Source: Actinomycetota bacterium | GTDB taxonomy: Bacteria; Actinomycetota; Actinomycetes; Propionibacteriales; Propionibacteriaceae | DNA length: 64,000 bases | Reading direction: 5' to 3' | Assembly: GCA_020161755.1 (NCBI GenBank) | Contig: JAIUOS010000019.1 | Coordinates: 1-64,000, forward strand | Part shown: positions 3,592-44,145 of the stretch, piece by piece | Layout: the number at the start of each line of letters is the position of its first letter | Position numbering within the stretch: the first letter of the stretch is position 1 | Program-made: the position numbers and the translations under genes | The notes under the pieces: model-generated | Told to the model about the DNA's origin: nothing | The model's input: only the letters and a program-made list of their open reading frames with translations | Database searches by the model: none

Positions 3592-3679
3592 CGTGGAACC
3601 TCCGAGCAGTTGGGCACCCTTGATCAAACCAGATCGGCGCCGACTCCGCACGCAGTCACGAGTCGACCATCACGTCACA

Positions 3680-5764: not shown

Positions 5765-5822
5765 CCCGGGCCTCCAACCCGGTCGCAGGGGCAGGATCGT
5801 CAAACCTGCCTAGGCGGCGGCG

Positions 5823-12142: not shown

Positions 12143-12271
12143 TTCGTCAATGTCAACGAACATGTCCTCAAGACCTTGGGCCTGCTGAACTCACCGACGT
12201 CACCAATGGTCAGTCAAGGTCGAAAGATGAAGTCGCTTGAGGACGAGTGCGGCCGGAAGAAGGATTGCTCT

Positions 12272-21155: not shown

Positions 21156-21183
21156 GGTGTTGTTCCTTGTTCGCGAAGTGGTT

Positions 21184-22128: not shown

Positions 22129-22432
22129 TGCGGACGCCTCCTGCAGCGACCGACTCGCGCCGTGAGAGGAGTGCTTCCAGCTTGCGACGGGGGAGTCGGC
22201 CGGCGGAGAAGTAGCGCCCATCGACGAGCACCAGAGGGTTCATGGCGGGCCGGTGCGCACTGATCAGTGCGGTGCCGAGCGGTGTCGCCGCCTCGACCAG
22301 CTGCAGAACCAGTGAGGGGTCGCGATGAGTCAGCTCGGTGAGGGTCTTGTGGGCGTCCTCGCAGAAGTGGCAGCCCGGTGCGGTCACCAAGGTGATCGCA
22401 GTGGGCGGCGGGAGGGCACGGTCAAGGCTCAT
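22121..22432 (-). CDS. Small glutaredoxin/thioredoxin-like protein with CxxC
   Basis: 103 aa from the ATG at 22432 (AGGAAG upstream). TAPGCHFCEDAH gives a CHFC active site at about residues 20-23, and NPLVLVDG carries the cis-Pro region. There is no signal peptide, so it is cytosolic and could donate electrons to the overlapping CcdA-like protein. Confidence 0.75.
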   Translation of the reverse strand: MSLDRALPPPTAITLVTAPGCHFCEDAHKTLTELTHRDPSLVLQLVEAATPLGTALISAHRPAMNPLVLVDGRYFSAGRLPRRKLEALLSRRESVAAGGVRNG

Positions 22433-24695: not shown

Positions 24696-24706
24696 CCGAA
24701 ACTTCA
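24691..24706 (+). promoter_or_regulatory. 11-bp-period direct repeat upstream of the intact oxidase
   Basis: CTTGACCGAAACTTCA (CTTGA-N6-CTTCA), 76 bp before the TTG start of the multicopper oxidase; it overlaps the 3' end of the kinase gene. Same pattern as the other predicted response-regulator boxes. Confidence 0.6.
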
Positions 24707-24781
24707 TGAAACCCGTGCCGAAGTCGCCCAAGTCGTTGCGCATGCTGGCACTCCGGTTACCGAAGTATTGAGGAGCGACCT

Positions 24782-26302: not shown

Positions 26303-26394
26303 TGACGTCCGCCGTACAGACCGTCCAGCTGATCTGCTCGGGCAGCGACGGAGGTTCTGAGCCGAAACGGTTCGCTGCAACGGCCAGTGGAGAT

Positions 26395-26410
26395 CTTGAT
26401 CCGATCTTGA
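26395..26410 (+). promoter_or_regulatory. 11-bp-period direct repeat upstream of copA
   Basis: CTTGATCCGATCTTGA, an exact CTTGA-N6-CTTGA, followed by CCGAAC. It lies about 100 bp before the copA start and 53 bp before the CsoR operator. The second half with its following bases (TTGACC) could also be a -35 element. Confidence 0.7.
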
Positions 26411-26462
26411 CCGAACCTCACCGCCATACCGGTGATTGGGAGCGTACGGTTTCAGACAGAAG

Positions 26463-26479
26463 ATACCCCCATGGGGTAT
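26463..26479 (+). promoter_or_regulatory. CsoR operator upstream of copA
   Basis: ATACCCC-CAT-GGGGTAT is a perfect 7-3-7 inverted repeat and matches the known CsoR/RcnR-type G/C-tract operator (TACCCC...GGGGTA). It overlaps an in-frame ATG at 26478, which argues that translation starts further on. CsoR from 29308 would release it on binding Cu(I). Confidence 0.75.
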
Positions 26480-26510
26480 GAGGCTTGCGGTGCAGAGGAT
26501 GGTGAGTGCG

Positions 26511-29264: not shown

Positions 29265-29307
29265 ACGACAACCTTCAAGCCCGCAGACGAGAACGGAGGT
29301 GAGGAGC

Positions 29308-29592
29308 ATGCCCGGCGACCAGCGGCCTGACCGGAGGGCGCTCCTCACCCGCCTGCACCGCATTGAGGGCCAGGTGCGCGGCATCGGCCGGATGATCGAC
29401 GACGACGTCTACTGCATCGACGTCCTCACCCAGGTGTCGGCAGCGTCCAGCGCCCTGCGATCGGTGGCACTGGTGCTGCTGGAACAACACCTCCAGCACT
29501 GCCTGGCCGAGGCCGCCCAGTCAGGCAACGAGACCCTCGACGCCAAGGTCACCGAGGCGTCCGAGGCGATCGCCCGACTCGTGCGCAGCTGA
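29308..29592 (+). CDS. csoR: Copper-sensing repressor CsoR
   Basis: 94 aa from the ATG at 29308, with GGAGGTGAGGAG just upstream. All-helical DUF156 fold: [16 protein letters not shown], then the Cu(I) ligands Cys (VYCIDVL), His and Cys ([10 protein letters not shown]-x3-C). These are the known C-H-C ligands, so it should sense Cu(I). It probably acts on the inverted repeat at 26463. A broken duplicate is at 2025-2306. Confidence 0.94.
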
Positions 29593-29651
29593 CCCGACCC
29601 GATCCCGCGGAATCCGAGTCGCGGCCGATGATCACCCGAGGGAGAGCCCTG

Positions 29652-32135
29652 ATGTCCACGAAACCCAGAACCGTCGTCCTTGAGGTCGCCGGGGTGCACG
29701 CCGCCTCGTCGAAGGGCGTTGCTGAAGCCTTCCTGGCACGCCAGCCCGGAGTTCTTGCGGTCGACGCGAACCCCGTCGCGCAGACCGCCAACGTGACCTA
29801 CGACCCTTCCCGAACCTCGGTGGTCCGACTTCGCCAGGCGGTCCTCGACTGCGGCTACCACTGCGCAGGCCAGTCGGTGCCCGACCACATCTGCGACCCG
29901 ACCGCCGACCCCGCCGGCCACGACCACGACCACCACGCCGCTCACCACGACCACGGGCACCCCCAGGCCCCTGCGGGAACCGCCGTCCAGGTCACCGACG
30001 AACAAGCGGCGCACGATCACGCGGCGACGACGCATGGCGGGCCCGACCATCACGAGCTGCCTGCGGCTGGAACCCCGCAGGACGTGATGGGCCACGGAGG
30101 CCACCACGCCGGCGTGTCGATGGCGGACATGGCCCGCGACATGCGCAACCGGTTCCTGGTCGCGCTGGTGCTGTCGGTCGTGATCACCTTGTGGTCGCCG
30201 ATCGGGCGCAACGTGCTCGGGTTTGCCGTGCCGGCGCCGTTCGGTCTGCGTGACGACGTGTTCGCCCTGGCGTTGTCGCTGCCGGTGATCTTCTACTCGG
30301 CCTGGATCTTCTTCGACGGAGCCTGGCGGGCACTGCGGGCCCGAACCCTGGACATGATGGTGCTGGTCGCAGTCGGAGTTGGTACCGGCTGGCTGTACAG
30401 CCTTGGCGTCACCCTCACCGGCGGCGGCGAGGTCTTCTACGAGGCCGCCACCGTGCTGACCACGTTCGTCCTGCTGGGCCACTGGGTCGAGATGCGTGCC
30501 CGCGGCGGCGCGAACGACGCCATCCGCACCCTACTGGAGCTCGCCCCGCCACGCGCGGTCGTCATCCGCGACGGACGCGAGGTCGAGGTCCCCACCTCCG
30601 AGGTGACCCCGGGGGACGTGCTGCTGGTGCGTCCCGGCGCGAAGATCCCCACCGATGGCACCGTGATCGACGGCGAATCGGAGATCGACGAGTCCATGGT
30701 GACCGGCGAGAGCCTCCCTGTAGCCAAGACGATCGGCTCGCCGGTCATCGGCGCCACCGTCAACACCGTCGGCGCGCTGCGGGTCCGCGCGACCCGGGTG
30801 GGGTCCGACACCGCCCTGGCACAGATCGTGGCCCTGGTCCAACAGGCGCAGAACTCCAAAGCGCCCGGGCAGCGGCTCGCGGATCGGGCCGCGTTCTGGC
30901 TGGTCCTGGTCGCCCTGATCGGCGGCACAGCCACATTGCTCGCGTGGCTGCTGGCCGGCGCGCCGCCAGCAACCGCGGTCCTGTTCGCGATCACCGTGGT
31001 CGTCATCACCTGCCCCGACGCGCTGGGGCTGGCGACCCCGACCGCCATCATGGTCGGTACCGGCCTCGGTGCGCGACGCGGGGTGCTGTTCAAGAACGCC
31101 ACCGCGCTGGAGTCCGCGGCCGGGATCGACGTCGTCGTCATGGACAAGACCGGGACTCTCACCCTGGGTGAGCCCGAGGTGACCGATCTGGTGGTCGACG
31201 GAATCGACGAACTGGAGCTGCTCGGCGCGGTCGCCGCGGTGGAGTGGGAGTCCGAGCACCCGCTGGCCAGGGCGATCCGCCGCTACGCTGCCGATCGTGG
31301 CGCGCCCGAACGGACCGCGGCAGGCTTCCGCAGCACGCCCGGACACGGCGCGAGCGCCATTGTCGAAGGCCGTCGGGTTCTGGTCGGGAACAGGCGGTTG
31401 CTCGACGCCGAGGGAATCCTGGCCGGGGCACTCGGCGCCCGCCGCGACGAGCTCGCTGACGCCGGACGGACCGCGGTCCTGGTCGCTGTCGATGATCGCG
31501 CCGTCGCCGTGATCGCGCTCGCCGACGCGCCCCGGCCGACCTCGGCCGCCGCAGTGGCTGCGATGCACCAGGCCGACGTCAGGGTCGTCATGCTTACCGG
31601 CGACAACGAGGTCACCGCCCGGCGGATCGCCGACAAGCTCGGCATCGACACGGTCATCGCCGAAGTGTTGCCGTCGGACAAGGCGTCCAGGATCGCGAGC
31701 CTGCAGGCCGATGGACGCCGGGTCGCGATGGTCGGTGACGGCGTGAACGATGCCCCCGCACTGGCCACCGCCGATCTCGGCATCGCGATCGGCGCCGGCA
31801 CCGACGTGGCGATCGAAACCGCCGACGTGGTGTTGATGCGCTCCGACCCGATGGACGTCGCGGTCGCGCTCCGCATCGGCAGGGGTACTGTCCGGAAGAT
31901 GCGACAGAACCTGGGGTGGGCGATCGGCTACAACACCGTCGCTCTGCCGATCGCCGCTGGCGTGTTCTACAGCTCCCTTGGCCTCATGCTCAGCCCGGAG
32001 ATTGCCGCGATCACCATGTCCGGCTCCAGCGTGATCGTCGCCGCCAATGCGCTCCTCCTGCGACGCCTCCGGCTGCCCGCCCAGCCCGTGCCGACAGGCG
32101 CCACCCCAGCGGCGTCTCGGCCCACGAGCAGGTAG
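29652..32135 (+). CDS. P1B-type ATPase with CPD motif, degenerate HMA and His-rich linker
   Basis: 827 aa from the ATG at 29652 (GGGAGAG upstream). The N-terminal 70 residues have an HMA-like fold without CxxC ([11 protein letters not shown]). A linker of about 85 residues rich in His ([14 protein letters not shown]) follows, then the ATPase: TGES, CPD at 454-456 ([12 protein letters not shown]), D498 in DKTGT, and GDGVNDAP. Overall it is closest to CopB-like copper/silver ATPases, whose usual motif is CPH; CPD is uncommon. The metal is thus uncertain; Cu or Ag is likely from context. It is probably co-transcribed with copA-csoR. Confidence 0.88.
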
Positions 32136-32800: not shown

Positions 32801-32826
32801 GGTCCTCGACGATGTCGAACCGCAGG

Positions 32827-32869: not shown

Positions 32870-35800
32870 TCAACTCTCGGGCGGAGGCGCCTCATGAGTC
32901 GCCTCCTTGCCTGCCGGCACACCACGTTCCACACCGGCCAGTTGCGAGTAATAGTGCCAGCGTTCGTCGACATCTGCCTGTGCGAGATTTGCCAATTCCT
33001 CCGCGCGTGTCGGATTCGCCCTCGCGAGCATGGCGAATCTCGCCTCGCTGAGCATGAAATCGCGCACCGGGGTGGACGGCGCCCGGCTGTCCAGGTGCAA
33101 CGGGTGCGCGGTCTCTCCGGGACGGAACCGGTACAGCGGCCAGTAGCCGCTGGCGACCGCGTCCGCCTGGTGGCTCATCGACGTGGCCATGTCGATGCCG
33201 TGCGCGATGCAGGTGGAGTAGGCGATCAGCAAGGAGGGCCCCGGCCACGCCTGGGCCTCGAGCATCGCCCGGACGGCCTGCTGCTGGTTCGCGCCGATCG
33301 CGAGCTGCGCGACGTAGACGTCGCCGTAGGCCTGCGCCAGCATCCCCAGGTCCTTCTTGCGGGTCGGCTTGCCCGCGGTGGCGAACTTCGCGGTCGCGCC
33401 GCGGGGGCTCGCCTTCGACGCCTGCCCGCCGGTGTTGGAGTACACCTCGGTGTCGAGCACCAGGATGTTCACGTTGCGTCCGCTGCCGAGCACGTGGTCG
33501 AGCCCGCCGTAGCCGATGTCGTACGCCCAGCCGTCGCCGCCGATGATCCACACCGACTTGTCGACCAGCTGGTCGGCGAGCGAGAGCAGCTGCCGGGCCT
33601 GTTCGCCGGCCTCGGCCCGTCCGATGCCCGGGCCGGCCCCGGACGGGCCGACGTGCGCGGCCAGCGCCCGCTTCAGCTCGGCGACCCGCTCCCGCTGGGC
33701 GGCCAGGCCGGCCTCGTCGGACTGGTCGGCGGCGAGGAGCGCGTCCGCGACCCCGTGGCCCAGTTCGTTGCGCAGCAGGCCGACCAGCCGGCGCGCCTCC
33801 GCGACCTGGAGGTCCTGCGCGATCCGCATGCCCAGCCCGAACTCGGCGTTGTCCTCGAACAGCGAGTTCGACCAGGCCGGGCCGCGCCCGTCCGCGTTGG
33901 TCGTGTACGGCGTGGTCGGCAGGTTGCCGCCGAAGATGGACGAGCACCCGGTGGCGTTGGCGATGATCATCCGGTCGCCGAACAGCTGGGTGAGCGTCTT
34001 GATGTACGGGGTCTCGCCGCAGCCGGAGCACGCCAGCGAGAACTCGAACAGCGGCTGCAGCTGGGCCACGCCCTTCACCTGGTCGGCGCGCACCTGGGTG
34101 CGGTCGATCTCGGGCAGGCCGAGGAAGAACCCGAACCGGTCGCGCTCGACGTCGCGGTGATCGCGGGCCGGTGCCATGTCCAGGGACTTGTGCTTGTGCT
34201 CGCTCTTCGAACGGGCCGGGCAGATGTCGGAACAGATGCCGCAGCCGGTGCAGTCGTCGGGCGCGACCTGGACGATCAGCCGCCGGCCGGGGTGCTGGCG
34301 GTCCTTGTACTCCTTGTGCAGGAATCCCTCGGGCGCGCCCGCCAGGTCGGCCGGGTCGGCCAGCTTGATCCGGATCGCGCTGTGCGGGCACACGACCGCG
34401 CACTTGCCGCAGTCGATGCACAGGTCGGGGTCCCAGACCGGCAGTTCGGCGGCGATGCCGCGCTTCTCCCACTTCGACGTCCCCGTCGGCCACGAGCCGT
34501 CCACGGGCAGCGCGCTGACCGGGAGCAGGTCGCCCTGGCCGTGCAGCATCGCACCGGTGACCCGGCGGACGAAGTCGCCGGCCTCTGCCGGCAGCGGCGG
34601 GAGCCGGTGGCTGTGGCTGGTCGGACGCAGCGCGGCCGGCAGCGGGCGCAGCGCGGCGATCGCGGCGTCGATCGCCGCGTAGTTGCGCTCCACGACCGTG
34701 CGACCGCGGCGGCCGTAGGTGGCCTCGACGGACGCCTTGATCGCTGCCACCGCCTCGTCGGCGGGCAGCACGCCGGAGAGGTAGAAGAAGCAGGGCTGCA
34801 TCACGGTGTTGATCCGCTTGCCCAGCCCGGCGGCCTTCGCCACCGCCTCGGCGTCGATCACCCACGTGCGCAGCCGCTTCTCCGCGATCTCCGCCTGCAC
34901 CTCCACCGGCAGGTGCTCCCACGTGTCCTCGCCGTGGGGGGAGTTCAGCAGCAGCGTGGCGCCCGGCTTGGCGATGTCGACGGTCTTCATCGCGGTGAGC
35001 AGGTCGAACTGGTGGACGGCGACGAAGTCGGCCCGGTCGACCAGATAGGTGGCCCGGACCGGCGTCCGACCGAACCGCAGGTGCGACACGGTGACTGCGC
35101 CGGACTTGCGGGAGTCGTAGACGAAGTAGCCCTGGGCGAAGGCCTCCGGCTGCTCGCCGATGATCTTCACCGAGTTCTTGGCCGCGCCCACCGTGCCGTC
35201 GGAGCCGAGTCCGTAGAACACGGCCGACAGGTGGTCGTCGGGAACGCGGAACGCCGGGTCCGGGGTGAGCGAGAGGTGGGTGACGTCGTCGACGATGCCG
35301 ACGGTGAACCGCGGCCGGGGGGCGGCCCCGGCCAGTTCGTCGAACACCGCCTTCGCCATCGCCGGGGTGAACTCCTTCGACGACAACCCGTAGCGCCCGC
35401 CGATCACCGTGAGCCCTGCCCGCAGCGGTGCACGCTCCCCCGTCGTGGTCACGTGCGGCCGGGACGCCAGCGCGACCAGGACGTCCGCGTGCAGCGGCTC
35501 CGCCGGGGCGCCGACCTCCTTGGTGCGGTCGAGCACCGCGATGCCGCGCACGGTGGCCGGCAGCGCGGCCAGGAAGGCCTCGGTCGGGAACGGCCGGTAC
35601 AGCCGGACGGTGAGCAGGCCCACCTTCTCGCCGCGGCGCACCAGCTCGTCCACGGTCTCGCCGAGGCAGCCGGCGGCCGAGCCCATCGCCACGACGACGC
35701 GCTCCGCGTCCGGGGCGCCGGTGTAGTCGACGAGCGAGTAGCGGCGCCCGGTGCGCGCGGCGAGCTCGTCGAACACCTGCGACACCGTCTCGGGCACGGC

Positions 35801-36565
35801 GAGGTGGAACGGGTTGGCGGCCTCCGCCGCCTGGAAGAACGTGTCGGGATTCTCGGCGACGCCGCGGATCACCGGCGCGTCCGGGGTCAGCCCTCGGGCC
35901 CGGTGGGCCAACACATCCGACTCCCGCACCAACGCCCGCAGGTCGTCGTCGGCGAGCAGCTGGATCGTGTTCTCCTCATGGCTGGTGCGGAACCCGTCGA
36001 AGAAGTGCACGAACGGCACCCGGGAGCGCAGCGTCGCGGCGTGCGCGACCAGGGCGAAGTCGTGCGCCTCCTGCACGCTGGACGCGCACAGCATCGCCCA
36101 GCCGGTGGTGCGGGCGGCCATCACGTCGGAGTGGTCGCCGAAGATGCTCAGCGCGTGGGTGGCCACCGTCCGGGCGGCCACGTGGATCACCGCGGGGGTG
36201 AGCTCGCCGGCGATCTTGTACATGTTCGGCAGCATCAGCAGCAGCCCCTGGGACGCGGTGAACGTCGCACCGAGCGCCCCCTTCGTCACCGCGCCGTGCA
36301 GAGCTCCCGCCGCGCCGGCCTCGGACTGGAGCTCGATGACGTCGGGTACCGCCCCCCACAGGTTGGTGCGGCCGGCGGCCGACCAGGCGTCCGCCGACTC
36401 CCCCATCGCCGAGGACGGGGTGATCGGGTAGATCGCGAGCACCTCGCTCAGGGCGTGCGCCACCCGCGCCGCGGCCTCGTTCCCGTCCACCGTCGCCCGG
36501 GTCGGCTGGGTGGAGCGGTCTGACGCGCGGGCGGGCATGGCCGACGACGGGAGCGATGAGGTCAT
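32870..36565 (-). CDS. nifJ: Pyruvate:ferredoxin (flavodoxin) oxidoreductase
   Basis: 1231 aa from the ATG at 36565 (36538 is an alternative); family members are about 1170-1200. Order: pyruvate-binding domain (YPITPSSAMGE), central domains, two [4Fe-4S] ferredoxin motifs (CIDCGKCAVVCPHS, CTGCGICSDICPARS), the proximal-cluster region (CSGCGETPY) and the thiamine diphosphate domain (GDGWAYDIGYGGLDHVL). It converts pyruvate and CoA to acetyl-CoA, CO2 and reduced ferredoxin, an oxygen-sensitive anaerobic reaction. It looks complete. Its place inside a copper block is odd; the partner may be the polyferredoxin at 37476 or a general ferredoxin. Long frames on the opposite strand are shadows. Confidence 0.95.
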   Translation of the reverse strand: MTSSLPSSAMPARASDRSTQPTRATVDGNEAAARVAHALSEVLAIYPITPSSAMGESADAWSAAGRTNLWGAVPDVIELQSEAGAAGALHGAVTKGALGATFTASQGLLLMLPNMYKIAGELTPAVIHVAARTVATHALSIFGDHSDVMAARTTGWAMLCASSVQEAHDFALVAHAATLRSRVPFVHFFDGFRTSHEENTIQLLADDDLRALVRESDVLAHRARGLTPDAPVIRGVAENPDTFFQAAEAANPFHLAVPETVSQVFDELAARTGRRYSLVDYTGAPDAERVVVAMGSAAGCLGETVDELVRRGEKVGLLTVRLYRPFPTEAFLAALPATVRGIAVLDRTKEVGAPAEPLHADVLVALASRPHVTTTGERAPLRAGLTVIGGRYGLSSKEFTPAMAKAVFDELAGAAPRPRFTVGIVDDVTHLSLTPDPAFRVPDDHLSAVFYGLGSDGTVGAAKNSVKIIGEQPEAFAQGYFVYDSRKSGAVTVSHLRFGRTPVRATYLVDRADFVAVHQFDLLTAMKTVDIAKPGATLLLNSPHGEDTWEHLPVEVQAEIAEKRLRTWVIDAEAVAKAAGLGKRINTVMQPCFFYLSGVLPADEAVAAIKASVEATYGRRGRTVVERNYAAIDAAIAALRPLPAALRPTSHSHRLPPLPAEAGDFVRRVTGAMLHGQGDLLPVSALPVDGSWPTGTSKWEKRGIAAELPVWDPDLCIDCGKCAVVCPHSAIRIKLADPADLAGAPEGFLHKEYKDRQHPGRRLIVQVAPDDCTGCGICSDICPARSKSEHKHKSLDMAPARDHRDVERDRFGFFLGLPEIDRTQVRADQVKGVAQLQPLFEFSLACSGCGETPYIKTLTQLFGDRMIIANATGCSSIFGGNLPTTPYTTNADGRGPAWSNSLFEDNAEFGLGMRIAQDLQVAEARRLVGLLRNELGHGVADALLAADQSDEAGLAAQRERVAELKRALAAHVGPSGAGPGIGRAEAGEQARQLLSLADQLVDKSVWIIGGDGWAYDIGYGGLDHVLGSGRNVNILVLDTEVYSNTGGQASKASPRGATAKFATAGKPTRKKDLGMLAQAYGDVYVAQLAIGANQQQAVRAMLEAQAWPGPSLLIAYSTCIAHGIDMATSMSHQADAVASGYWPLYRFRPGETAHPLHLDSRAPSTPVRDFMLSEARFAMLARANPTRAEELANLAQADVDERWHYYSQLAGVERGVPAGKEATHEAPPPES

Positions 36566-36888
36566 GCCGCACATAGTGCCTGCACGCAGGGTGTCCGCTG
36601 GCATCGTGGAGCGACGAGCAGACGGAACCTTGACGATTTCTTCGTCGTTTGTGGTGGGAATGCAGTGCGGGGGACCGTTCGATGACGGGTCCGGGGTGGC
36701 GCGCTGACTCCGGCGAACATCGGTAGCGCCCAGGTCGCCGCGAACCGGCTCCCACAAGGTGCCAAGCGGCACACATCGAGATCTCGTCAAGTGTTTGTGA
36801 AGGTTTGGTGTACTCGCGCGTTCTGGGTCGCGCGCCGCGTTCGCCGCCCGACATAGTTCAGGAGATCTGACCCCGAGGAGCCCCCCTG
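36566..36888. other. Divergent intergenic region between nifJ and the Met-rich protein gene
   Basis: No gene is seen. It holds two loose 11-bp-period repeats: TCAAG-N6-TGAAG at 36787-36802 (CTTCA-N6-CTTGA on the minus strand) and CTTGA-N6-CTTCG at 36629-36644. The first is 87 bp before the Met-rich gene. Either could be chance matches. Confidence 0.4.
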
Positions 36889-37449
36889 ATGAAACCGTAC
36901 GTCGTCGCTGCGTCCGTAATGGTGGCGATGTTGCTGCCCGCGTTCGGTGCCCAATTCGCCGTAGCGGCCGGGCCCCGGAGCGGATACGCAGCGCCGGCCG
37001 TCGAGCCCGCTGTGACGCCAGCTCCCTCGCCATCGGCGTCGGCCACCGACGACATGGCCGGGATGAGCCATGAGGACATGACCGGGATGAGTCATGAAGA
37101 CATGCCCGGCATGAACAATGCGAGCCCGTCTGTATCGACCCCCACCCCGAGCACCGGGATGAATGATCAGACGATGCCGGGCATGGACCACGGGCAGTCG
37201 GGCATGAACGACCAGGACATGCCGGGGATGGATCACGGAAGTGGGAACGCGGAGCCTGCCGGCGGCGCAGCTGAAGGGTCGTCGCACGCTCATGGCGAGG
37301 GCGTTGCGACCCCGCCACGCCCGGTCGCGGCCCTCGTTGGCGGCTTCGCTGCCGTCAACGGCGGGGTGATGATCACCGCCGCCGTCCTGCGCCGACGCGA
37401 CAAGCGTCATGCCGCCACCTCCTCCCGACCCACCCGGCCGGCCAAATAG
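36889..37449 (+). CDS. Secreted Met/His-rich copper-binding-like protein
   Basis: 186 aa, GAGGAG before the start. Signal peptide (1-26), a Pro/Ser/Thr linker, then a tract of about 65 residues with repeats of the type DMxGMSHED, MPGMNN and MPGMDHG (at least six GM or PGM units with His nearby), and a C-terminal span (about 150-170) with a basic tail. Methionine motifs of this kind bind Cu(I) in PcoA/CopA and CueO-type proteins. It is probably a surface-anchored copper buffer. Confidence 0.8.
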   Translation: MKPYVVAASVMVAMLLPAFGAQFAVAAGPRSGYAAPAVEPAVTPAPSPSASATDDMAGMSHEDMTGMSHEDMPGMNNASPSVSTPTPSTGMNDQTMPGMDHGQSGMNDQDMPGMDHGSGNAEPAGGAAEGSSHAHGEGVATPPRPVAALVGGFAAVNGGVMITAAVLRRRDKRHAATSSRPTRPAK

Positions 37450-37475: not shown

Positions 37476-38900
37476 ATGCCAACTCTGATTCAGCTGCGTC
37501 CGCGGGACGAGGAGTCCGACCTCGACGCAAACCCCCCACTCCCTTCAGCCCCGGCGGGTCCCAACCTGATGAGGATCTCGCTCATCGCAAGGATCCTGCG
37601 CAGCCGGTGGTACCCCGGCATCCTGCAGGTCCCGGTGGCCGCTGTCTTCGGTCTGGTGGCGTTCCAGCTGCTCGCCGGGCCGGCCGCCGCGCAAAGGAAT
37701 GCCGGCACCGCCTTGATGTGGGTGCTGTGGTGGCCCATCCTGCCGATCACCTTCGTGCTGGTCGGGCGCCTGTGGTGCGCGGTCTGTCCGTTCGGCGCGA
37801 TCTCCGACGTCGTCCAGAAGCTTGTCGGCGTGAACCGGCCGGTGCCGCGGTTCCTCAAGCTGTACGGCCTGTGGATCATCGACGCCCAGTTCCTGGCGAT
37901 CACCTGGAGCGACCACGTCTGGGGGATCGTCGAGTCACCGTGGGGCTCAGGCGTACTCCTTCTTCTCCTCACCACCGGGGTGATCATCTCCGGAGCACTC
38001 TTCCAGCGGCGCACGTTCTGCCGCTACCTGTGCTTCCTCGGCGGCCTGTGCAGCAACTACTCCCGCGGCAGCGTGGTCGAACTTCGCGCCGACCAGGACA
38101 TCTGCAGGACCTGCAAGGCGAAGGCGGCCTGCTTCAATGGCACCGCCACCCAGCCCGGCTGCCCGCTGTTCAACTTCCCGCGGACGATGGACTCCAGCGC
38201 GAACTGCACCCTGTGCGCCAACTGCATCAAGGCCTGCCCCAACGATGCCATCCAGGTGCGGGCACGCAAGCCGCTCAGCGAACTGTGGTTCCTGGACAAG
38301 CCGAAGATCGAGGAATCGTTCCTCGCCATGGCGATCATGGGCATCGTCCTCATCCAGAACCTCACCATGCTCTCAATCTGGCAGGACATCCTCGGCTGGA
38401 TCGAAAAGACCACCGGCATCACCAGCTACCCGCTCATCTTCACCGTCGCCTTCGTGGTCGCGGTGAGCGTTCCCGTCGGCTTGATGGCGCTGGCCTCGAA
38501 GGTCGCCTCGCGCGGCAACCTCGAGAACACGGTGACCAACTTCGCGAGGTTCGGCTACGCCCTGATCCCGCTGGACATCGCTGCCCACCTGGCCCACAAC
38601 CTCTTCCACCTCCTCGCGGAGGGCGGGGTCGTGTTCTCCACCGTCGCATCACTGTTCGGCTTCGATTCGGCCCAGATGCCGACGGCGCTGGCGAGTTCCT
38701 CAACGATCCTGATCCTGCAGCTGATCATCCTCGCCCTCGGGGTGGCAGGTTCGGCCTACACCATCCGCCGAATCACGAACCGCCGCTACGGCAGCGTCGC
38801 ACGCCGCCGCGCCACCACGACCCCCTACCTGGTGCTGCTCGGGGTCTTGACCGTGATGAACGTGTACCTGTTCCTGATGCCGATGGCCCACCGTATGTAG
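37476..38900 (+). CDS. Membrane polyferredoxin, NapH/NosR C-terminal-like
   Basis: 474 aa. It has about eight spans, the membrane CxxxCP motifs typical of NapH/NosR (LWCAVCPFGA and FCRYLCFLGG), a Cys-rich insertion (CRTCKAKAACFNG) and a [4Fe-4S] motif CTLCANCIKACPNDA. Such proteins carry electrons across or along the membrane, for example to nitrous-oxide reductase maturation (NosR) or nitrate reductase (NapH), and the related CcoG reduces copper. Neither nos nor nap genes are seen. It starts 27 bp after the Met-rich copper protein, so a role in copper redox is plausible but inferred. Confidence 0.85.
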   Translation: MPTLIQLRPRDEESDLDANPPLPSAPAGPNLMRISLIARILRSRWYPGILQVPVAAVFGLVAFQLLAGPAAAQRNAGTALMWVLWWPILPITFVLVGRLWCAVCPFGAISDVVQKLVGVNRPVPRFLKLYGLWIIDAQFLAITWSDHVWGIVESPWGSGVLLLLLTTGVIISGALFQRRTFCRYLCFLGGLCSNYSRGSVVELRADQDICRTCKAKAACFNGTATQPGCPLFNFPRTMDSSANCTLCANCIKACPNDAIQVRARKPLSELWFLDKPKIEESFLAMAIMGIVLIQNLTMLSIWQDILGWIEKTTGITSYPLIFTVAFVVAVSVPVGLMALASKVASRGNLENTVTNFARFGYALIPLDIAAHLAHNLFHLLAEGGVVFSTVASLFGFDSAQMPTALASSSTILILQLIILALGVAGSAYTIRRITNRRYGSVARRRATTTPYLVLLGVLTVMNVYLFLMPMAHRM

Positions 38901-40468
38901 CAGCTCCGGGCCAGCAGGGCGAGCCACGCCAGGGAGGCGAGGCTGAGGACCTGCTGGAGCGGGACGGAGATCATCGCTGCCGGGGTGAGTCCGTCCCGGA
39001 GCGGGAGGGTCGTGACCCCGCTGGCGGCGCCTTGCTCGACTCGAAGTCGTGGCTTGCCGTCCGGGCCGATGATCCCGCTGACGCCGCTGGTGGTGACCAC
39101 GAGTACTTCCCGCTTCAGTTCCGCCGCGCGAGCCCGGGTGATGGCGAACTGCTGGTCCACCTGGCTCGAGCCCTGGTACATCGCATTGCTGCTCTGCACC
39201 ACGATGATCTGGGCGCCGTTGCCGGGCAGGTCGTAGGCGACCTGGTCAAAGGCGACGTCGAAGCAGAGGAGAACCCCCACGGTTGCGGCACGACCGTCGC
39301 GGAGGGTGACCGGCAGGGTGCCGGCTACGGTCCCGGGGACCGATTGCGCTCCCACGTAGCGGAGTTGCGGAACGAGGGGGAGCAGGACGTCGCGGAACGG
39401 AATCCATTCACCGAACGGGACGAGAGACCGCTTGATGTAGGTGGGGCCGGCGCCTTGGGTCGTCCACCATTGCGATGCGGTCTGTCGTTCGTCCTGCCCT
39501 GGACCTTTGAGGATCGTTCCCACGAGTATCGGCGCCCGGGCGGCGGCGACCGAGGCTTCGATGAGGCTGCGGGTTGTCGCGTCGACTCGTGGGTCGAGAT
39601 CTGTGGCGTTCTCGGGCCAGATCACCGCGTCGGGCACGTCTGCGCGTCCGCTGCTGATCTCCTCGGCGAGCTTCGCCGTTTGGCTGGCGTGGCGGTAGGA
39701 GGTGGAGCGCTCGGCACCGATCCCGTAGACGCCACCCCCGGGGGCACCACCCTGGACCCACCCGAGCGTGATGTTGCCGGTGGTTGCTGGGGGAGGCAGC
39801 GCGCGTCCCGCCAAGGCCGCGAGAAGCAGTCCCGCGATGAGGGCGGCGAGAACCGAGACTCGGCGCCACGACGTCCGGATGGCGACCCAGGCCAGCGACT
39901 GCGCGAGCAGTGCTGTGGCGAAGCTGAGCCCGCCGACGCCGACCAGCGGGAGCAGCCCTGACAGGGGAGAGTCGATCATCGTGTAGCCCAGTCGAAGCCA
40001 CCCGAATCCACCGAACGGGAATCGGGACGCCGCATACTCCATGGCCAACCAGAGCCCGGCGGACAGGACCGGCCAGGCCCGGGTCCTGAAGGCCAGGTTG
40101 GTGGCTACGCCGAGGAGCGCGTACCAGGTGGTCATCGCGACGATCAGCCCGGCCGCTGCCCCCAGATCGATCATCCCCATCCAGTTGAGGGTGTTGGCCG
40201 TGAAGACGAACCCGAAGACCGTGCCCACCGCGGCGGCCCGGCAGCCACTGTACGGACCGCGGGAGGCCAGCGCGAAGCCCGCCACCCCGACCACCGTTCC
40301 GGGCCACAGGCCGATCGGGGCGAAGCCGACGCTGGTCAGGGCGCCAGCCAGGGCGGCGATCAGGATCCGATGGCTTTGCCGTTGAGAACGCCGGGCGAGA
40401 TCGCCGAGCCCTGGCTTCGCTTCAGCCCCCGTTGGGTGGGCGGAGGCCAGCGCGAGGTTCTCAGGCAA
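38825..40468 (-). CDS. lnt: Apolipoprotein N-acyltransferase, second copy
   Basis: 547 aa, start overlapping the lgt stop by 8 bases. Membrane spans are followed by the nitrilase-fold domain with catalytic Glu (VIWPENATD), Lys (YIKRSLVPFGEW) and Cys (LLCFDVAF), all present. The C terminus overlaps the convergent polyferredoxin gene by 76 bases. It is clearly diverged from the copy at 12272. Encoded with lgt behind a copper-type direct repeat, it may complete lipoproteins made under copper stress. Confidence 0.92.
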   Translation of the reverse strand: MPENLALASAHPTGAEAKPGLGDLARRSQRQSHRILIAALAGALTSVGFAPIGLWPGTVVGVAGFALASRGPYSGCRAAAVGTVFGFVFTANTLNWMGMIDLGAAAGLIVAMTTWYALLGVATNLAFRTRAWPVLSAGLWLAMEYAASRFPFGGFGWLRLGYTMIDSPLSGLLPLVGVGGLSFATALLAQSLAWVAIRTSWRRVSVLAALIAGLLLAALAGRALPPPATTGNITLGWVQGGAPGGGVYGIGAERSTSYRHASQTAKLAEEISSGRADVPDAVIWPENATDLDPRVDATTRSLIEASVAAARAPILVGTILKGPGQDERQTASQWWTTQGAGPTYIKRSLVPFGEWIPFRDVLLPLVPQLRYVGAQSVPGTVAGTLPVTLRDGRAATVGVLLCFDVAFDQVAYDLPGNGAQIIVVQSSNAMYQGSSQVDQQFAITRARAAELKREVLVVTTSGVSGIIGPDGKPRLRVEQGAASGVTTLPLRDGLTPAAMISVPLQQVLSLASLAWLALLARSCYIRWAIGIRNRYTFITVKTPSSTR

Positions 40469-41234
40469 CCGGGGTCGTGAGGGGCGCGGGTTCTGGCGAG
40501 TCGGTCTGGCCGGCGCCCCTGGCTCTTGCGATCAGGACGATGCCCCCGATGATGCTCGCCAGGCCGAAGAGCTGCGCCTCCGTCATGCCGAGGAGCACCG
40601 GGTTGTTGATCCGCACGAGTTCGACGAGGATCCGCGAGAGCCCGCTCATCACGAGGTAGCTGCCGAACACCGCGATCGGGGCGATCCGGTCCTGCAGCAC
40701 CCACAGGGCGAGAGCGATCAGGAACGCCGCCGCAGCCTCATAGAGCTGGGCCGGGTGCACCGGGACGTTGACGGGAACGGCCCCGTTGGGGAAGGCCATT
40801 CCCCAGGGCAGGTCGGTCGGCTTGCCGTACGTGCCGTCGCCGGCAAGGAAGCATCCGATCCGTCCAATGCCGTAGGCGACCGACAGCGGCATCGCCATCG
40901 CTCCGGCAACCGTGCCGAGCGGAAGTCCGTGGCGGCGGGTGATCACGAGAACGGCCAGGACGCCACCGATCAGGCCGCCGTACCAGACGAATCCGGAGCT
41001 GCCGAGCATGTGCAGGTCGAAGTTGCTCCAGTTGTCGATCAGGAAGTAGACCTTGGCTGCCACGAAGCCCCACACTGTCGCCCACATCACCAGGGAGTAC
41101 GCCGTGTCCTTGTCGTAACCGAGCCGAGTGAAGCGTCGGCCGAGAATGTACGCACCGACGAGGGCGGCGACTGCCTTGCTCACCCCGTAGGACTGGATCT
41201 GGAATCCGAAGATGCTGAACAGTACGGGTAGCAC
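40461..41234 (-). CDS. lgt: Prolipoprotein diacylglyceryl transferase
   Basis: 257 aa from the GTG at 41234 (GGAG at 9-bp spacing). Polytopic. The Lgt signature is recognisable but altered: FVWYGGLIGG in place of the usual HGG segment, and GRIGCFLAGDGTYG in place of GRxGNFxNxE, with HPAQLYE downstream as in the family. It transfers diacylglycerol to the lipobox Cys. The altered signature is shared, as far as recalled, by some actinobacterial paralogues and suggests a specialised enzyme. First gene of the lgt-lnt operon. Confidence 0.9.
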   Translation of the reverse strand: MLPVLFSIFGFQIQSYGVSKAVAALVGAYILGRRFTRLGYDKDTAYSLVMWATVWGFVAAKVYFLIDNWSNFDLHMLGSSGFVWYGGLIGGVLAVLVITRRHGLPLGTVAGAMAMPLSVAYGIGRIGCFLAGDGTYGKPTDLPWGMAFPNGAVPVNVPVHPAQLYEAAAAFLIALALWVLQDRIAPIAVFGSYLVMSGLSRILVELVRINNPVLLGMTEAQLFGLASIIGGIVLIARARGAGQTDSPEPAPLTTPVA

Positions 41235-41331
41235 GGTGATCAATCTCCAAAGGAAGCAGTGAGTGGGCCGCAGCAACGGGCCGGTCAGGTCAACGGTGCC
41301 GTGCCTTGGTGTGGATTGCGCAGACCTTCCC

Positions 41332-41347
41332 GCAAGATTCAGTCAAG
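41332..41347 (-). promoter_or_regulatory. 11-bp-period direct repeat upstream of lgt-lnt
   Basis: On the minus strand CTTGACTGAATCTTGC (CTTGA-N6-CTTGC), 98 bp before the lgt start and facing it. It links lipoprotein maturation to the putative copper regulon. Confidence 0.62.
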
Positions 41348-41405
41348 AACCCCAACCGGGCGCGGGGGAGGCGGCGTCCTGTCGGGAACTGAGCGATCGC
41401 CCCTT

Positions 41406-41421
41406 CTTGTCCGAATCTTGA
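41406..41421 (+). promoter_or_regulatory. 11-bp-period direct repeat upstream of a 63-aa membrane protein
   Basis: CTTGTCCGAATCTTGA (CTTGT-N6-CTTGA) followed by CCCGAAC, 74 bp before the GTG at 41495 on the same strand. Confidence 0.65.
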
Positions 41422-41494
41422 CCCGAACCACGGCTGAGCCGAACGACCTGCCCGGCATCCTGACCGCGAGGCATCGACCCACGAAGGGAGTGAC

Positions 41495-41686
41495 GTGCTG
41501 CATCAAGGCCCCCCGGTCGCGAGCTGGATCCTCATCTGTCTTGCGCTGGTTCTGTTGTGGCTCGTCACCATCGTGGCGGCTCGTTCGCTGTTGGGCGGTC
41601 ACAGAGTCCAGCGAGTCCGTCACGTATCGCCGACCCGAGCCGAATCACCTGCCGGGTCGCCGCGACCGTCGGTTCGTTCTTCTTGA
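41495..41686 (+). CDS. 63-aa single-span membrane protein
   Basis: GTG start with GAAGGGAG at 5-bp spacing. One span (about residues 11-30, WILICLALVLLWLVTIVAA) and a basic, Ser/Pro-rich tail. No family is recognised. A copper-type direct repeat precedes it and another overlaps its stop codon, so it is probably a member of the regulon rather than a chance frame. Confidence 0.6.
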   Translation: MLHQGPPVASWILICLALVLLWLVTIVAARSLLGGHRVQRVRHVSPTRAESPAGSPRPSVRSS

Positions 41687-41697
41687 CCGCACCTTGA
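41682..41697 (+). promoter_or_regulatory. 11-bp-period direct repeat upstream of the DUF2933-like gene
   Basis: CTTGACCGCACCTTGA, exact CTTGA-N6-CTTGA. It overlaps the stop of the 63-aa gene and lies 88 bp before the GTG at 41786. Confidence 0.7.
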
Positions 41698-41785
41698 TCC
41701 ACGCCGAACAGGAACCGAATGTGTGGTGGGCACAGTTGCAGACAGGACAACCTCCACCGAGGTGGAGTGTGGAGAAGGAGTTGCC

Positions 41786-42088
41786 GTGAGCGTGGATAAC
41801 CAGTCGAAGTCGTCGCCGCCGTGGGCGAATTACCCCGACGCCGAGACGTCCCCGGATCGGTCGGTCCCGGATCAGGCGAGCCACGCCGGCCATCAGGCCG
41901 ACCACTCCGAGCACGGAAGTCGCGGAGGTCACGGCTGGATGATGCTGCTGATGTGCGTGCCGCTCGTCGCTATCGGTCTGTGGCAGTTCTTCAGCGGCGG
42001 CGGACTGGCGCCACTCCTTGGCGGACTGGTGTGCTTCGGGATGATGGCGCTGATGCATCTCGGGATGGGCTCGTCGCATCGCCATTGA
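41786..42088 (+). CDS. His-rich small membrane protein, DUF2933-like
   Basis: 100 aa from GTG (AAGGAG upstream). A polar N terminus with several His (HAGHQADHSEHGSRGGHGW) leads into two closely spaced spans (LMCVPLVAIGLWQFF; GGLVCFGMMALMHLGMG) and ends HRH. This is the shape of DUF2933 proteins, which often sit in copper/heavy-metal operons; no biochemical role is known to me. Predicted to be copper-induced. Confidence 0.72.
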   Translation: MSVDNQSKSSPPWANYPDAETSPDRSVPDQASHAGHQADHSEHGSRGGHGWMMLLMCVPLVAIGLWQFFSGGGLAPLLGGLVCFGMMALMHLGMGSSHRH

Positions 42089-42133: not shown

Positions 42134-43255
42134 CTACCGTGGGGTGCGGCGGATCGGGAGGCTCAGGGTGAAGGTGGATCCCAGGCCCGAGCCGGGGCTC
42201 ACAGCCGTCAACTGGCCGCCGTGGGCTTCGACGAGCGCGCGGGCGATGGTCAGCCCGATACCCGATCCTGCAGCATCGCGGGTTCGGGCGGTGTCTCCTC
42301 GGTAGAACCGGTCGAAGACATGGCGCAGCTGATCGGGGGCGATGCCGTCGCCGGTGTCGGCAACCGCCACGAGGGCAGTTTCTTGGGTCTTCTGGACTGT
42401 GATCGTGACACTTCCTCCGGGGGAGGTGTGCCTCAACGCGTTGTTGACCAGGTTGTTGAGCGCCTGGCCGATACGGATCGCGTCGATCGCCACAACCGCG
42501 TCCTCACCGGGGAGGAGCGCGAGGGTGACGTCCTTGGCATCGAACTTCGGCTGATGGGCATCCACCACGTCGGCGACGACATCACGAAGCGACTGCACAT
42601 TGGGCTCGATGGTGACCCGGCCCTCTTCGGCCCGGGAAACGTCGTTGAGGTCCCCGGCAAGCCGGCTCAGGTGATTCGTTTCGGCGAGAAGAAGGCTGCG
42701 GGTATCGGCATCCCACTCCGCTACGCCGTCGTCGACGGCTTCCAGGTGCGCCTGGATGTTGGCCAGGGGAGTGCGCAACTCGTGCGCCAGGTCTCCAAGG
42801 AGACGAAGACGGGTCTGCTCGGTCGCCGCAAGCTGCGTGGTCATGTCGTTGAAAGCTGCCGCGAGATTCGCCAACTCCGGCCCGGCGCCCGCTTCGATCA
42901 CGACAAGTTCGTGGCTGCCCTGGGAGAGGGCCTTCGCCGCCGTGGAGAGCTTCTCCAGCGGCCGTCGGATTCGACGGGTCACGTAGTAGGTGACGCCCAG
43001 CGCGCAGCCGATCGCGACCACCATGGCGACCGCCAGCGAAGCGGTGCTTGAGTCCAGGTAGGCCTGCTCGATGTGGGGGATCTCCGGGGATGTCGGCACG
43101 TGACCACTGGCAATGAGGTGGTCATGGAACAGGGTTGGCCCCAGGATCGCCGCGACACCGCCGGCGGTGGCGATGGCTGCCAGCAGCACCAGGCTCTGCG
43201 CCACGAACAGCCGGACCCCCAGGCTCCAGTCCTTGGGGCGGGTCGGTCGCTTCAC
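42134..43255 (-). CDS. Sensor histidine kinase (second two-component system)
   Basis: 373 aa. Two spans flank a short loop with LFHDHLIASG and a second His 15 residues later (HIEQAY). HAMP, H-box LAHELRTPLAN, HATPase (NALRHTSPGG, ADTGDGIA). Its start overlaps the regulator stop (ATGA). The loop pattern is shared with kinases at 23580 and 46208. Confidence 0.92.
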   Translation of the reverse strand: MKRPTRPKDWSLGVRLFVAQSLVLLAAIATAGGVAAILGPTLFHDHLIASGHVPTSPEIPHIEQAYLDSSTASLAVAMVVAIGCALGVTYYVTRRIRRPLEKLSTAAKALSQGSHELVVIEAGAGPELANLAAAFNDMTTQLAATEQTRLRLLGDLAHELRTPLANIQAHLEAVDDGVAEWDADTRSLLLAETNHLSRLAGDLNDVSRAEEGRVTIEPNVQSLRDVVADVVDAHQPKFDAKDVTLALLPGEDAVVAIDAIRIGQALNNLVNNALRHTSPGGSVTITVQKTQETALVAVADTGDGIAPDQLRHVFDRFYRGDTARTRDAAGSGIGLTIARALVEAHGGQLTAVSPGSGLGSTFTLSLPIRRTPR

Positions 43256-43983
43256 TTGGGCGGAGCCTCGGGCCTGCCCATGCGATACCCGACTCCCCGG
43301 ACGGTGAGCAGGTAGAGGGGTTCGATCGGATCGTCGCCAAGCTTGCGACGCAGGTTCGCGATGTGCACGTTCACGACGTGGTCGTCACCGACCCACTCGG
43401 TGTTCCACACGCGATCGATGATCTGACGGCGCGTGAGCGTGGCTCGCGGGTTGCTGGAAAGCACGTCCAGAATGTCGAATTCGGTGCGGGTGAGGCTGAG
43501 CCGGCGATCGCCGACCCAGACCTCCCGCAGTCCTGGATCGATCACCACGTCACCGAATTGACGCTTCTCAGCCGACTCCTCGGGTGAGGTCGCTCTCGAC
43601 AGGCGGGGTCGCCGCAGAACCGCGCTCACCCGAGCGACCACCTCCCTTGGACTGAACGGCTTGCCGATGTAGTCGTCGGCACCCACACCGAGACCGATGA
43701 TCCGGTCGGTCTCATCGTCCCTCGCGGTGAGCATGAGGATGTAGCAGTCCGAGAAGGTCCGCACCTGCCTGCAGACCTCGATCCCGTCCAGCCCGGGCAG
43801 GCCCAGGTCGAGCAGGATGACCTCGGGATCGAGTTCGCGTGCGGCGGCGACCGAGCCGGGGCCGTCCACCGCATAGTGAACCTCATACCCGGCCTTCACC
43901 AGGTACGACCCAAGAATCTGCGCCAAGGCTCGTTCATCATCAACGACGAGGATCTTGGCCGGTGCCGGCACGGTGCTGCTCAT
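43252..43983 (-). CDS. OmpR-family response regulator (second two-component system)
   Basis: 243 aa. Receiver with VVDDER, phospho-acceptor Asp in EVILLDLGLPG and Lys in IGKPF; winged helix with RTEFDILDVLSSNPRATLTR and VRGVGYRMG. A direct repeat at 44045 lies 62 bp before its start, on the other strand. It is a candidate for the factor binding the CTTGA repeats, because most sites flank this system. Confidence 0.92.
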   Translation of the reverse strand: MSSTVPAPAKILVVDDERALAQILGSYLVKAGYEVHYAVDGPGSVAAARELDPEVILLDLGLPGLDGIEVCRQVRTFSDCYILMLTARDDETDRIIGLGVGADDYIGKPFSPREVVARVSAVLRRPRLSRATSPEESAEKRQFGDVVIDPGLREVWVGDRRLSLTRTEFDILDVLSSNPRATLTRRQIIDRVWNTEWVGDDHVVNVHIANLRRKLGDDPIEPLYLLTVRGVGYRMGRPEAPPK

Positions 43984-44044
43984 CTTCGAAGTATGGCGGA
44001 CCGACGGCCGCGGCCGGCTGCTGCGGGGGCATCGGCGGCCATCT

Positions 44045-44060
44045 CTTGATCCAATCTTGA
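44045..44060 (+). promoter_or_regulatory. 11-bp-period direct repeat near the second two-component system
   Basis: CTTGATCCAATCTTGA, exact CTTGA-N6-CTTGA followed by CCGAAC, nearly identical to the copA site at 26395. It faces the operon beginning at 44528 and is 62 bp from the divergent regulator, so it may serve either. Confidence 0.65.
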
Positions 44061-44145
44061 CCGAACCGTCGCCCGGAGCCCCTCAACCCGCCGGCTGGCG
44101 CAGGCACGCGGCAACCAGGCGGGTATCGCCGTCCGCTACGCCAGC

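Follow-up and report, generated by a model that had tools for sequence, protein, structure and literature searches.

Why copper-resistance elements carry enzymes of lipoprotein maturation is an open question, posed by work on Listeria and by the Lgt-depletion-like effect of copper on Escherichia coli. The same question is raised by the window analysed here, the 64,000 nucleotides that make up bases 1-64000 of contig 19 (77.8 kb; JAIUOS010000019.1) in the genome of an actinobacterium of the family Propionibacteriaceae (G000; 4.08 Mb, 61 contigs). As a preliminary description of this DNA had stated and family profiles bore out, the window encodes one prolipoprotein diacylglyceryl transferase (Lgt), two N-acylating enzymes (Lnt) and two signal peptidases II (LspA). 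By family annotation, it also encodes four heavy-metal P-type ATPases, two multicopper oxidases (MCO1 and MCO2), regulators of the CsoR and ArsR types, three two-component systems of the OmpR type, two ResA/CcdA-type pairs, VKOR and DsbA. A whole-genome search detected a second full-length Lgt on contig 2 (221.5 bits versus 165.9 for the window copy), one further full-length LspA on contig 49 and one further full-length Lnt on contig 3, with three more Lnt rows weak and below the cut-off; because each family has a further full-length member elsewhere in the genome, the window copies are extra. The preliminary description had named, as the observation that would refute its path for metal lipoproteins deployed when copper rises, that these be the only lgt, lspA and lnt genes of the organism and constitutively expressed, and the copies on the three other contigs rule out that they are the only ones.

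The reading that we favor, with a probability of roughly 0.6, is that the window belongs to a probably mobile metal-resistance region in which an auxiliary Lgt-Lnt pair is switched on by a CopRS-like system along with a copper ATPase, a lipoprotein oxidase and the regulator itself, and that Lgt and Lnt would sustain lipoprotein maturation under copper. What the sequence offers is paralogy, a conserved box with its targets, conserved genomic contexts, the protein fold and most of the active-site residues; from these, we infer that copper induces the pair, that the regulator binds the box, that the enzymes are active and that they act protectively.

The box is a direct repeat, TCTTGACnnnaTCTTGAC, with an 11-bp period. 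The copper box that the preliminary description had predicted ahead of lgt-lnt proved to be real: the window contains 10 matches at up to 3 mismatches, compared to 0.63 (standard deviation 0.88) expected from shuffled sequence, and when no more than 2 mismatches are allowed, 5 of the 6 boxes in the entire genome fall within the window, with none for a reversed control pattern. With a matrix derived from 30 sites in relatives and none in the window, 15 hits are obtained in the window, versus 5 hits at the same threshold in 20 control neighborhoods (384 kb), that is, 0.8 per 64 kb. Apart from the boxes in Table 1, the matrix hits are those at 32826/32837, 50480 and 36775 and three at 10-11 bits. 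No strong box was found by the matrix scan near LspA1, LspA2, Lnt1, MCO1 or the other lgt and lspA of the genome; weak, background-level sites lie within the 10 kb that surround the other lnt (10.6 bits), past the right end of the window (10.3 bits) and just after MCO1 (10.8 bits). Scanning the surroundings of lgt for promoters yielded no usable result.

The box is conserved at this position. Our genome collection includes 41 loci with a related Lgt, of which 24 are actinobacterial (L012-L035), and the box precedes the accessory lgt in 17 of the 24, namely, all 15 Propionibacteriaceae-type loci and two from Serinicoccus (at 3 mismatches), compared to none in 28 loci (103.5 kb) of other Lgts. 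Among the 122 boxes found over the 24 loci, those within 350 bp of a marker gene point to Lgt (31), the cupredoxin ATPase (15), the regulator (9), CcdA (6), MCO2 (3), ResA (2) and a small open reading frame (ORF; 1); relatives of the response regulator are preceded by a box in 8 of the 24 loci. Within the family, a box with at most 1 mismatch occurs in 15 of 17 genomes that carry the accessory lgt versus 43 of 130 that do not (Fisher 1.6e-5). Thus, lgt-lnt is probably copper-regulated via this conserved box, with the OmpR-type regulator encoded nearby as the candidate binder. A close parallel is the CopRS regulon of Corynebacterium glutamicum (PMC3140484), where an actinobacterial response regulator likewise goes with a copper oxidase, a copper ATPase and TlpA, and where the operator is also a direct repeat with an 11-bp period. 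There, however, the repeat TGAAGATTTnnTGAAGATTT was mapped experimentally at one site, whereas here TCTTGACnnnaTCTTGAC is present at many sites, one of them ahead of lgt-lnt.

All 24 actinobacterial genomes with the accessory lgt encode at least one more Lgt; at the profile cut-off, 15 of the 24 encode at least two Lnts and 8 at least two LspAs, with no LspA in one. We searched the 10 kb on each side of the accessory lgt, contig ends allowing, by tblastn with window proteins as markers, requiring half their length, so that distant copper genes are missed in the accessory and control sets alike. The markers found near the accessory lgt are a P-type ATPase (19 of the 24 loci), CcdA-type (18), ResA-type (18), CsoR (15), CopA-type (12), Lnt (10) and MCO (9). 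At least two of the four classes CsoR, MCO, P-type ATPase and CcdA/ResA are present in 21 of the 24 loci versus 0 of 20 controls (Fisher 1e-9), every marker being absent around all 20. The controls are the presumed housekeeping Lgt genes from 20 of these genomes, with G001, G004, G013 and G021 left out; ordinary-type Lgts close to the accessory lgt in G019 (~8 kb) and G020 (~14 kb) and the only other Lgt of G004, at 8-9 kb, were excluded and may themselves be copper-linked. When loci with at least 90% Lgt identity are merged, 17 clusters remain, of which 14 have copper/metal neighbors and 10 have lgt preceded by the box. Six genomes (G001, G013, G015, G017, G022 and G023) contain an additional Lgt-like frame of 71-132 bits, either divergent or partial, which in the last four shares a contig with the accessory lgt. 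Extreme contrasts of sequence identity in the small draft G013 may reflect assembly mixing and were therefore not taken to prove transfer.

The accessory Lgt appears to be a genuine member of its family, with predicted enzyme activity. Its PF01790 score is 165.8 bits (cut-off 24.9), and the best structural match of the predicted model (pLDDT 88) is E. coli Lgt (5azb; Z 23.9, 234 residues aligned, root-mean-square deviation 2.6), with the next best chain at Z 7.5. Among the residues reported as essential are Y26, R143, R239 and G154 (PMC13251419). Equivalents of Y26, R143, R239, E243 and R246 of the E. coli enzyme are kept in the accessory Lgt, and that of G154 aligns if a one-residue gap is allowed; R125, R201 and G137 of the accessory protein are invariant over 24 rows, and the Y26 position reads SYG. 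The signature GRIGCFLAGDG, which the preliminary description had called altered, consists of the letters quoted there, and yet it is the normal, invariant mark of a separate Lgt clade. The motif GR.GC...GDGTYG is found in 26 of 26 accessory rows, which rules out decay, and GR.GC...GDG in 14 of 16 other Lgt rows (L045 and L051 lack it). In a quick tree that carries a long-branch warning, the 26 accessory rows form a single clade (SH-aLRT 100), far from the other Lgt of the host and next to Lgts of Acidobacteriota, Myxococcota and others with a similar signature. The probable lgt start is a GTG at 41234, behind GGAG.

The two genes of the pair are contiguous, the first possible start of Lnt2 overlapping the end of lgt by 8 nucleotides. 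Lnt2 is 49% identical to the Lnt encoded elsewhere in the genome. In both window Lnts, the Glu, Lys and Cys that we take to be the catalytic triad are kept (WPE, the K before VPFGE and the C in CFD, as aligned with 5n6h).

Table 1 Lipoprotein-maturation genes, copper-type boxes and metal-resistance features of the window and its flank (positions are those of contig 19)
Feature	Position	Strand	Evidence or remark
ArsR-type regulator, divergent from Zn/Cd ATPase-LspA1	3307-3651	-	
Zn/Cd-type P-type ATPase followed by LspA1	3701-6473	+	TIGR01512 467 bits (cut-off 313.5)
LspA1	5823-6473	+	PF01252 82 bits (cut-off 25)
MCO1	8599-10068	+	Twin-arginine-like signal, lipobox LLGGC; no box upstream
Second accessory lnt (Lnt1)	12176-13843	+	TIGR00546 204.1 bits (cut-off 132.9); triad kept; no box upstream
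Pair of ResA-type (thioredoxin-like) and CcdA-type genes, often found beside accessory lgt	20541-22221	-	DsbD_TM 24.3 bits, under cut-off 27.1
Box before MCO2	24690-24707	+	Pattern and matrix scan
MCO2	24782-26245	+	Twin-arginine-like signal, lipobox LLAAC; box upstream
Two overlapping boxes (26394, 26405) before cupredoxin/YHS P-type ATPase	26394-26422	+	Pattern and matrix scan
Copper P-type ATPase with cupredoxin and YHS domains	26436-29264	+	TIGR01511 605 bits (cut-off 397)
CsoR-type regulator	29230-29592	+	PF02583 101 bits
Copper P-type ATPase with HMA domain	29628-32135	+	TIGR01511 591 bits
Accessory lnt (Lnt2), contiguous with lgt	38825-40468	-	TIGR00546 189.5 bits (cut-off 132.9)
Accessory lgt (prolipoprotein diacylglyceryl transferase, GDG-type clade)	40461-41276	-	PF01790, fold, clade support 100
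Box before lgt-lnt	41331-41348	-	~97 nucleotides ahead of probable lgt start; 21.9 bits with relative-only matrix
Box divergent from lgt	41405-41422	+	Strongest window site, 29.6 bits
Box before small His-rich membrane ORF	41681-41698	+	Pattern and matrix scan
Part of small His-rich membrane ORF	41821-42088	+	No Pfam match; also adjoins lgt in L012
Sensor histidine kinase, candidate copper sensor	42134-43255	-	TIGR01386 cztS_silS_copS 184 bits, below cut-off 292.55
OmpR-type response regulator, candidate box binder	43252-43983	-	Family profiles; boxes upstream
Two overlapping boxes (44044, 44055) before response regulator	44044-44072	+	Matrix scan
Solute-binding protein (FbpA of the preliminary description)	about 55706-56749	-	Lipobox LTAC
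LspA2	63395-63955	-	PF01252 99 bits (cut-off 25); behind Zn/Cd-type P-type ATPase just outside window
Two phage-type integrases (L084 9347-12213)	about 72346-75212		8 kb past window end; candidates for mobility of the region

What would such a pair do under copper? In E. coli, copper causes accumulation of the Lpp forms that are seen on Lgt depletion, and binding of copper to the lipobox thiol has been proposed; the copper locus cutE is lnt itself (PMC6538781). In Listeria, lit2 is co-transcribed with, or lies beside, a second lgt and is induced by copper, and N-acylation has been suggested to remove a copper site (PMC8275575, PMC8689077). The simplest mechanism for the window pair, by analogy, would follow the same logic as Listeria lgt2-lit2, with Lnt in the place of Lit. 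A copper-responsive, CopRS-like two-component system would turn on lgt-lnt, the copper ATPase, the lipoprotein copper oxidase and its own regulator. Copper at the outer face of the membrane would block lipobox thiols at a time of bulk synthesis of copper lipoproteins; the extra Lgt would sustain S-diacylglyceryl transfer to the lipobox cysteines despite this block and load, and the extra Lnt would acylate the freed amino group, which would remove the amine-thioether copper site of diacyl lipoproteins.

The window pair is probably an actinobacterial counterpart of the lgt2-lit2 element of Listeria monocytogenes and Enterococcus (PMC8275575, PMC8689077, PMC7387801, PMC12345273), with auxiliary, copper-regulated lipidation and N-acylation. 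The Listeria element is mobile, and its second lgt adjoins genes of a copper two-component system and an MCO; in the window, the second lgt, two-component genes and a copper oxidase are present with integrases adjoining, and mobility is presumed. In both, an enzyme that acylates the lipoprotein N-terminus lies beside lgt, namely, Lit (identified by PF07314 in L108 and L109) there and Lnt here. The differences are that the acylating partner here is Lnt, which yields the triacyl form, that the Lgt is of another lineage, and that the genome already has another Lnt; no CopY or Lit was detected among the window ORFs scanned, to which the Lit search was limited. Together with its own conserved copper-type box, these features make the window pair an independent case, and box and gene set provide a ready regulon for study in environmental actinobacteria. 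An lgt in a copper locus receives a short mention for E. faecalis (PMC4511184). In Pseudarthrobacter sp. AG30, an actinobacterial lgt lies beside an MCO, CopD and csoR-copZA, as given in one sentence of a genome announcement, which in the available part names no lnt, box, clade or function (PMC6256500). In the literature searched, which took in few subscription papers, we found no account of an lgt-lnt pair controlled by a copper box in actinobacteria, nor of plasmid-borne lgt as a general phenomenon.

The two LspA genes do not share the switch. The preliminary description had combined all five enzymes into one three-step path under one control, and this part of it was not supported: LspA1, LspA2 and Lnt1 lack a box, and each LspA follows a Zn/Cd-type P-type ATPase, the one at LspA2 being a further ATPase that overlaps this gene past the right end of the window. 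The lack of a strong box near either lspA rules out copper control of these copies by the same switch, and no LspA was found within 10 kb of the accessory lgt in any of the 24 loci. Both proteins keep two Asp residues, after GNL and in N-AD (aligned with 5dir), that we take to be the catalytic dyad; LspA1 scores below the TIGR00077 cut-off of 74 (NCBIfam; 51) and LspA2 above it (76). The only Pfam match of either is Peptidase_A8 and, therefore, there is no phosphatase fusion. The LspA copies are part of a neighboring Zn/Cd ATPase module, outside the lgt-lnt switch. The order of a Zn/Cd/Pb-type P-type ATPase followed by signal peptidase II, seen at both LspA genes, resembles the pbr/cad-type ATPase-lspA operons such as that with PbrC in Cupriavidus metallidurans (PMC3431237), with the differences that an ArsR-type regulator is found here at 3307, that the phosphatase fusion is lacking, and that there is no tie to the lgt-lnt box.

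The association of lgt with copper genes extends to plasmids. Proteobacterial-type Lgt matched 503 plasmid records by tblastn, some of which, at several megabases, are presumably chromosomes. We sampled one record under 500 kb per genus, for the 26 genera in a 60-row spread list (Halomonas from another strain); the first regions had been picked as informative-looking, and the one-per-genus rule was fixed afterwards. Copper-specific genes are present within 7-8 kb of lgt in 16 of the 26 genera (Halomonas, Novosphingobium, Psychrobacter, Moraxella, Salipiger, Roseibium, Leisingera, Phaeobacter, Roseovarius, Dinoroseobacter, Lactococcus, Enterococcus, Listeria, Arthrobacter, Paenarthrobacter and Rhodococcus), a raw count, uncorrected for the background of random plasmid genes; in Salipiger, the copper genes are partly short oxidase fragments, and in Roseovarius and Arthrobacter, they lie partly at the edge of the stretch. 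Given near-identical elements across genera (Phaeobacter/Leisingera/Dinoroseobacter, Moraxella/Psychrobacter, Listeria/Enterococcus and Arthrobacter/Paenarthrobacter), these 16 genera correspond to about 11 independent elements. Five genera (Paraburkholderia, Cytobacillus, Paenibacillus, Deinococcus and Cellulomonas, the latter with an MCO at 13 kb) have a heavy-metal ATPase within 8 kb and no copper-named gene; four (Nitratireductor, Leptolyngbya, Priestia and Corynebacterium) have no copper or metal gene annotated near lgt, and the Phocaeicola record is unannotated. Unannotated P-type ATPase fragments lie near lgt in Nitratireductor, which is counted here as lacking copper neighbors. Outside the sampling rule, lgt lies near a CsoR-type gene and a P-type ATPase on a Streptomyces plasmid (559 kb) and near a heavy-metal ATPase on a second Enterococcus plasmid. 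The Listeria and E. faecalis plasmid elements encode Lit (PF07314) beside lgt, in agreement with the published element, and two lnt-bearing Rhodococcus plasmids resemble the left part of the window in that an ATPase-lspA pair and a gene for CopC lie nearby.

In a 90-row Lgt tree, the copper-linked label (20 accessory and 17 plasmid rows) changes at least 10 times, with 6 changes forced by starred branches; a change may represent either a gain or a loss, and the tree includes hardly any chromosomal Lgts from Bacillota and Pseudomonadota. Copper-linked Lgts are thus scattered over the tree, which fits repeated recruitment, although the changes may be losses. We tentatively suggest, at somewhat less than even odds, that a second Lgt is a general copper-tolerance gene: given that lipidation of the lipobox cysteine would be copper-sensitive, copper elements of Actinomycetota, Bacillota and Pseudomonadota would each have gained an Lgt of their own, accompanied in some elements by an N-acylating enzyme (Lnt in the window, Lit in Bacillota) and frequently by a thiol-reducing CcdA/ResA pair that would keep the cysteine reduced. 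With an independent actinobacterial case and the plasmid survey at hand, a general rule by which a spare Lgt would relieve a copper block of lipoprotein maturation is directly testable.

Three other explanations of the accessory pair have to be weighed against auxiliary maturation under copper. The accessory Lgt and Lnt could be dedicated to the metal lipoproteins of the island, that is, the copper oxidases and their neighbors, with the other copies serving the rest, which we regard as rather unlikely. Both MCOs and FbpA are predicted lipoproteins, as the preliminary description had it, and the lipobox-bearing MCO2 has the same box as lgt-lnt; among MCO2 relatives over 50% identical near accessory lgt genes, 6 of 6 have a lipobox. 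However, of the 23 copper oxidases encoded in the vicinity of copper-linked lgt genes, our lipobox rule finds the motif in 8 and not in the other 15. Predicted lipoproteins are about threefold enriched near the accessory lgt (29 of 465 genes versus 7 of 331 control genes, Fisher 0.005), where the 29 are what is left of 46 rule hits after removal by eye of 17 CcdA/DsbD-like polytopic proteins, a cut not applied to the control 7; before this cut, 20 of the 24 accessory loci and 7 of the 20 control loci had at least one hit. In Serinicoccus (L030, 10001-13450), three genes for predicted lipoproteins and one of CcdA type come after the accessory lgt, as though in a single operon. Against such dedication, lgt is also carried by proteobacterial plasmids with CopA/CopB-type systems, and no Lgt paralogue is known to us to have been shown to select particular clients. 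A general heavy-metal (Zn/Cd/Pb) trait resembling pbrC, with copper incidental, would be compatible with the other readings; the position of both LspAs behind Zn/Cd-type ATPases, the five plasmid genera with a heavy-metal ATPase alone and the two Rhodococcus plasmids are in its favor, and yet the lgt-lnt box is common to the copper ATPase and copper oxidase, not to the Zn/Cd ATPases, and CsoR is present in 15 of the 24 lgt loci, so that we consider this account highly improbable.

The accessory Lgt could also be a weak or non-lipidating paralogue, with the copper genes nearby by chance or with another membrane role. Several observations are behind this alternative, those on N146 also weighing against auxiliary maturation under copper: the protein falls under the NCBIfam TIGR00544 equivalog cut-off (83 versus 118.9 bits), N146 of E. 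coli Lgt is replaced by Cys and H103 by Tyr, N146A is inactive in E. coli, and M. smegmatis has a second Lgt, carrying N146C and Y26H, that is presumed to be weak (PMC13251419). Changes at both positions are nevertheless on record in distant Lgts, His103 being Tyr, Trp or Phe in many (PMC13251419); as recorded variants, they lower confidence in activity, not in family membership. The high Pfam score, the E. coli Lgt fold and the retained active-site residues argue against a defunct paralogue, as do the promoter box kept in most relatives and the adjacency of several Lgt lineages to copper genes. Furthermore, the GDG-type protein is the sole Lgt detected in 4 of the 15 non-actinobacterial drafts that have it (G029, G033, G034 and G038, among L036-L050; the drafts may be incomplete, and the G034 Lgt has GD, not GDG). 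A weak or non-lipidating paralogue is improbable in our estimate. Auxiliary maturation under copper has further points to answer in the relatives: Lnt accompanies the accessory Lgt in only 10 of the 24 loci, and 7 of the 24, none from Propionibacteriaceae, have no box before lgt; no CsoR, MCO or P-type ATPase was seen in three loci (L012, on a short contig, L027 and L029), and identity is as low as 40-45% for some of the P-type ATPases matched near lgt, which may be Zn/Cd pumps (L028, L035). For many of the 122 boxes, no marker gene lies close by, and, as counted above, the box is not confined to family genomes with the accessory lgt.

The region that harbors lgt-lnt is probably mobile. The accessory lgt is patchy in the family of the host, being found in 17 of 147 genomes, with the present one counted, and the integrases beyond the window are candidates for its movement. 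Of the term island-borne, as used in the preliminary description, the extra copies, the nearby integrases and the patchy distribution stand, and movement itself we infer from them.

Several minor observations touch on the surroundings of lgt. DUF2933 small proteins are annotated near plasmid lgt in several phyla (L108, L109, L112, L115, L120, L125 and L128). The small ORF at 41821 was considered as a DUF2933 homologue and rejected, having neither a Pfam match nor BLASTP similarity. Between the copper genes, a long frame (32870-37318, minus strand) encodes pyruvate:ferredoxin oxidoreductase domains (POR_N 267 bits), with the weak box at 36775 in its upstream part. Farther to the right, ARAGORN reports a tRNA-Ser(GGA) at 56297-56388 (plus strand) inside the solute-binding lipoprotein gene on the opposite strand, probably a false call. 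Finally, the ORF at 36889-37449 (plus strand) encodes a probably secreted Met-rich protein with DMAGMSHEDM-like repeats and no significant Pfam match, perhaps a copper binder.

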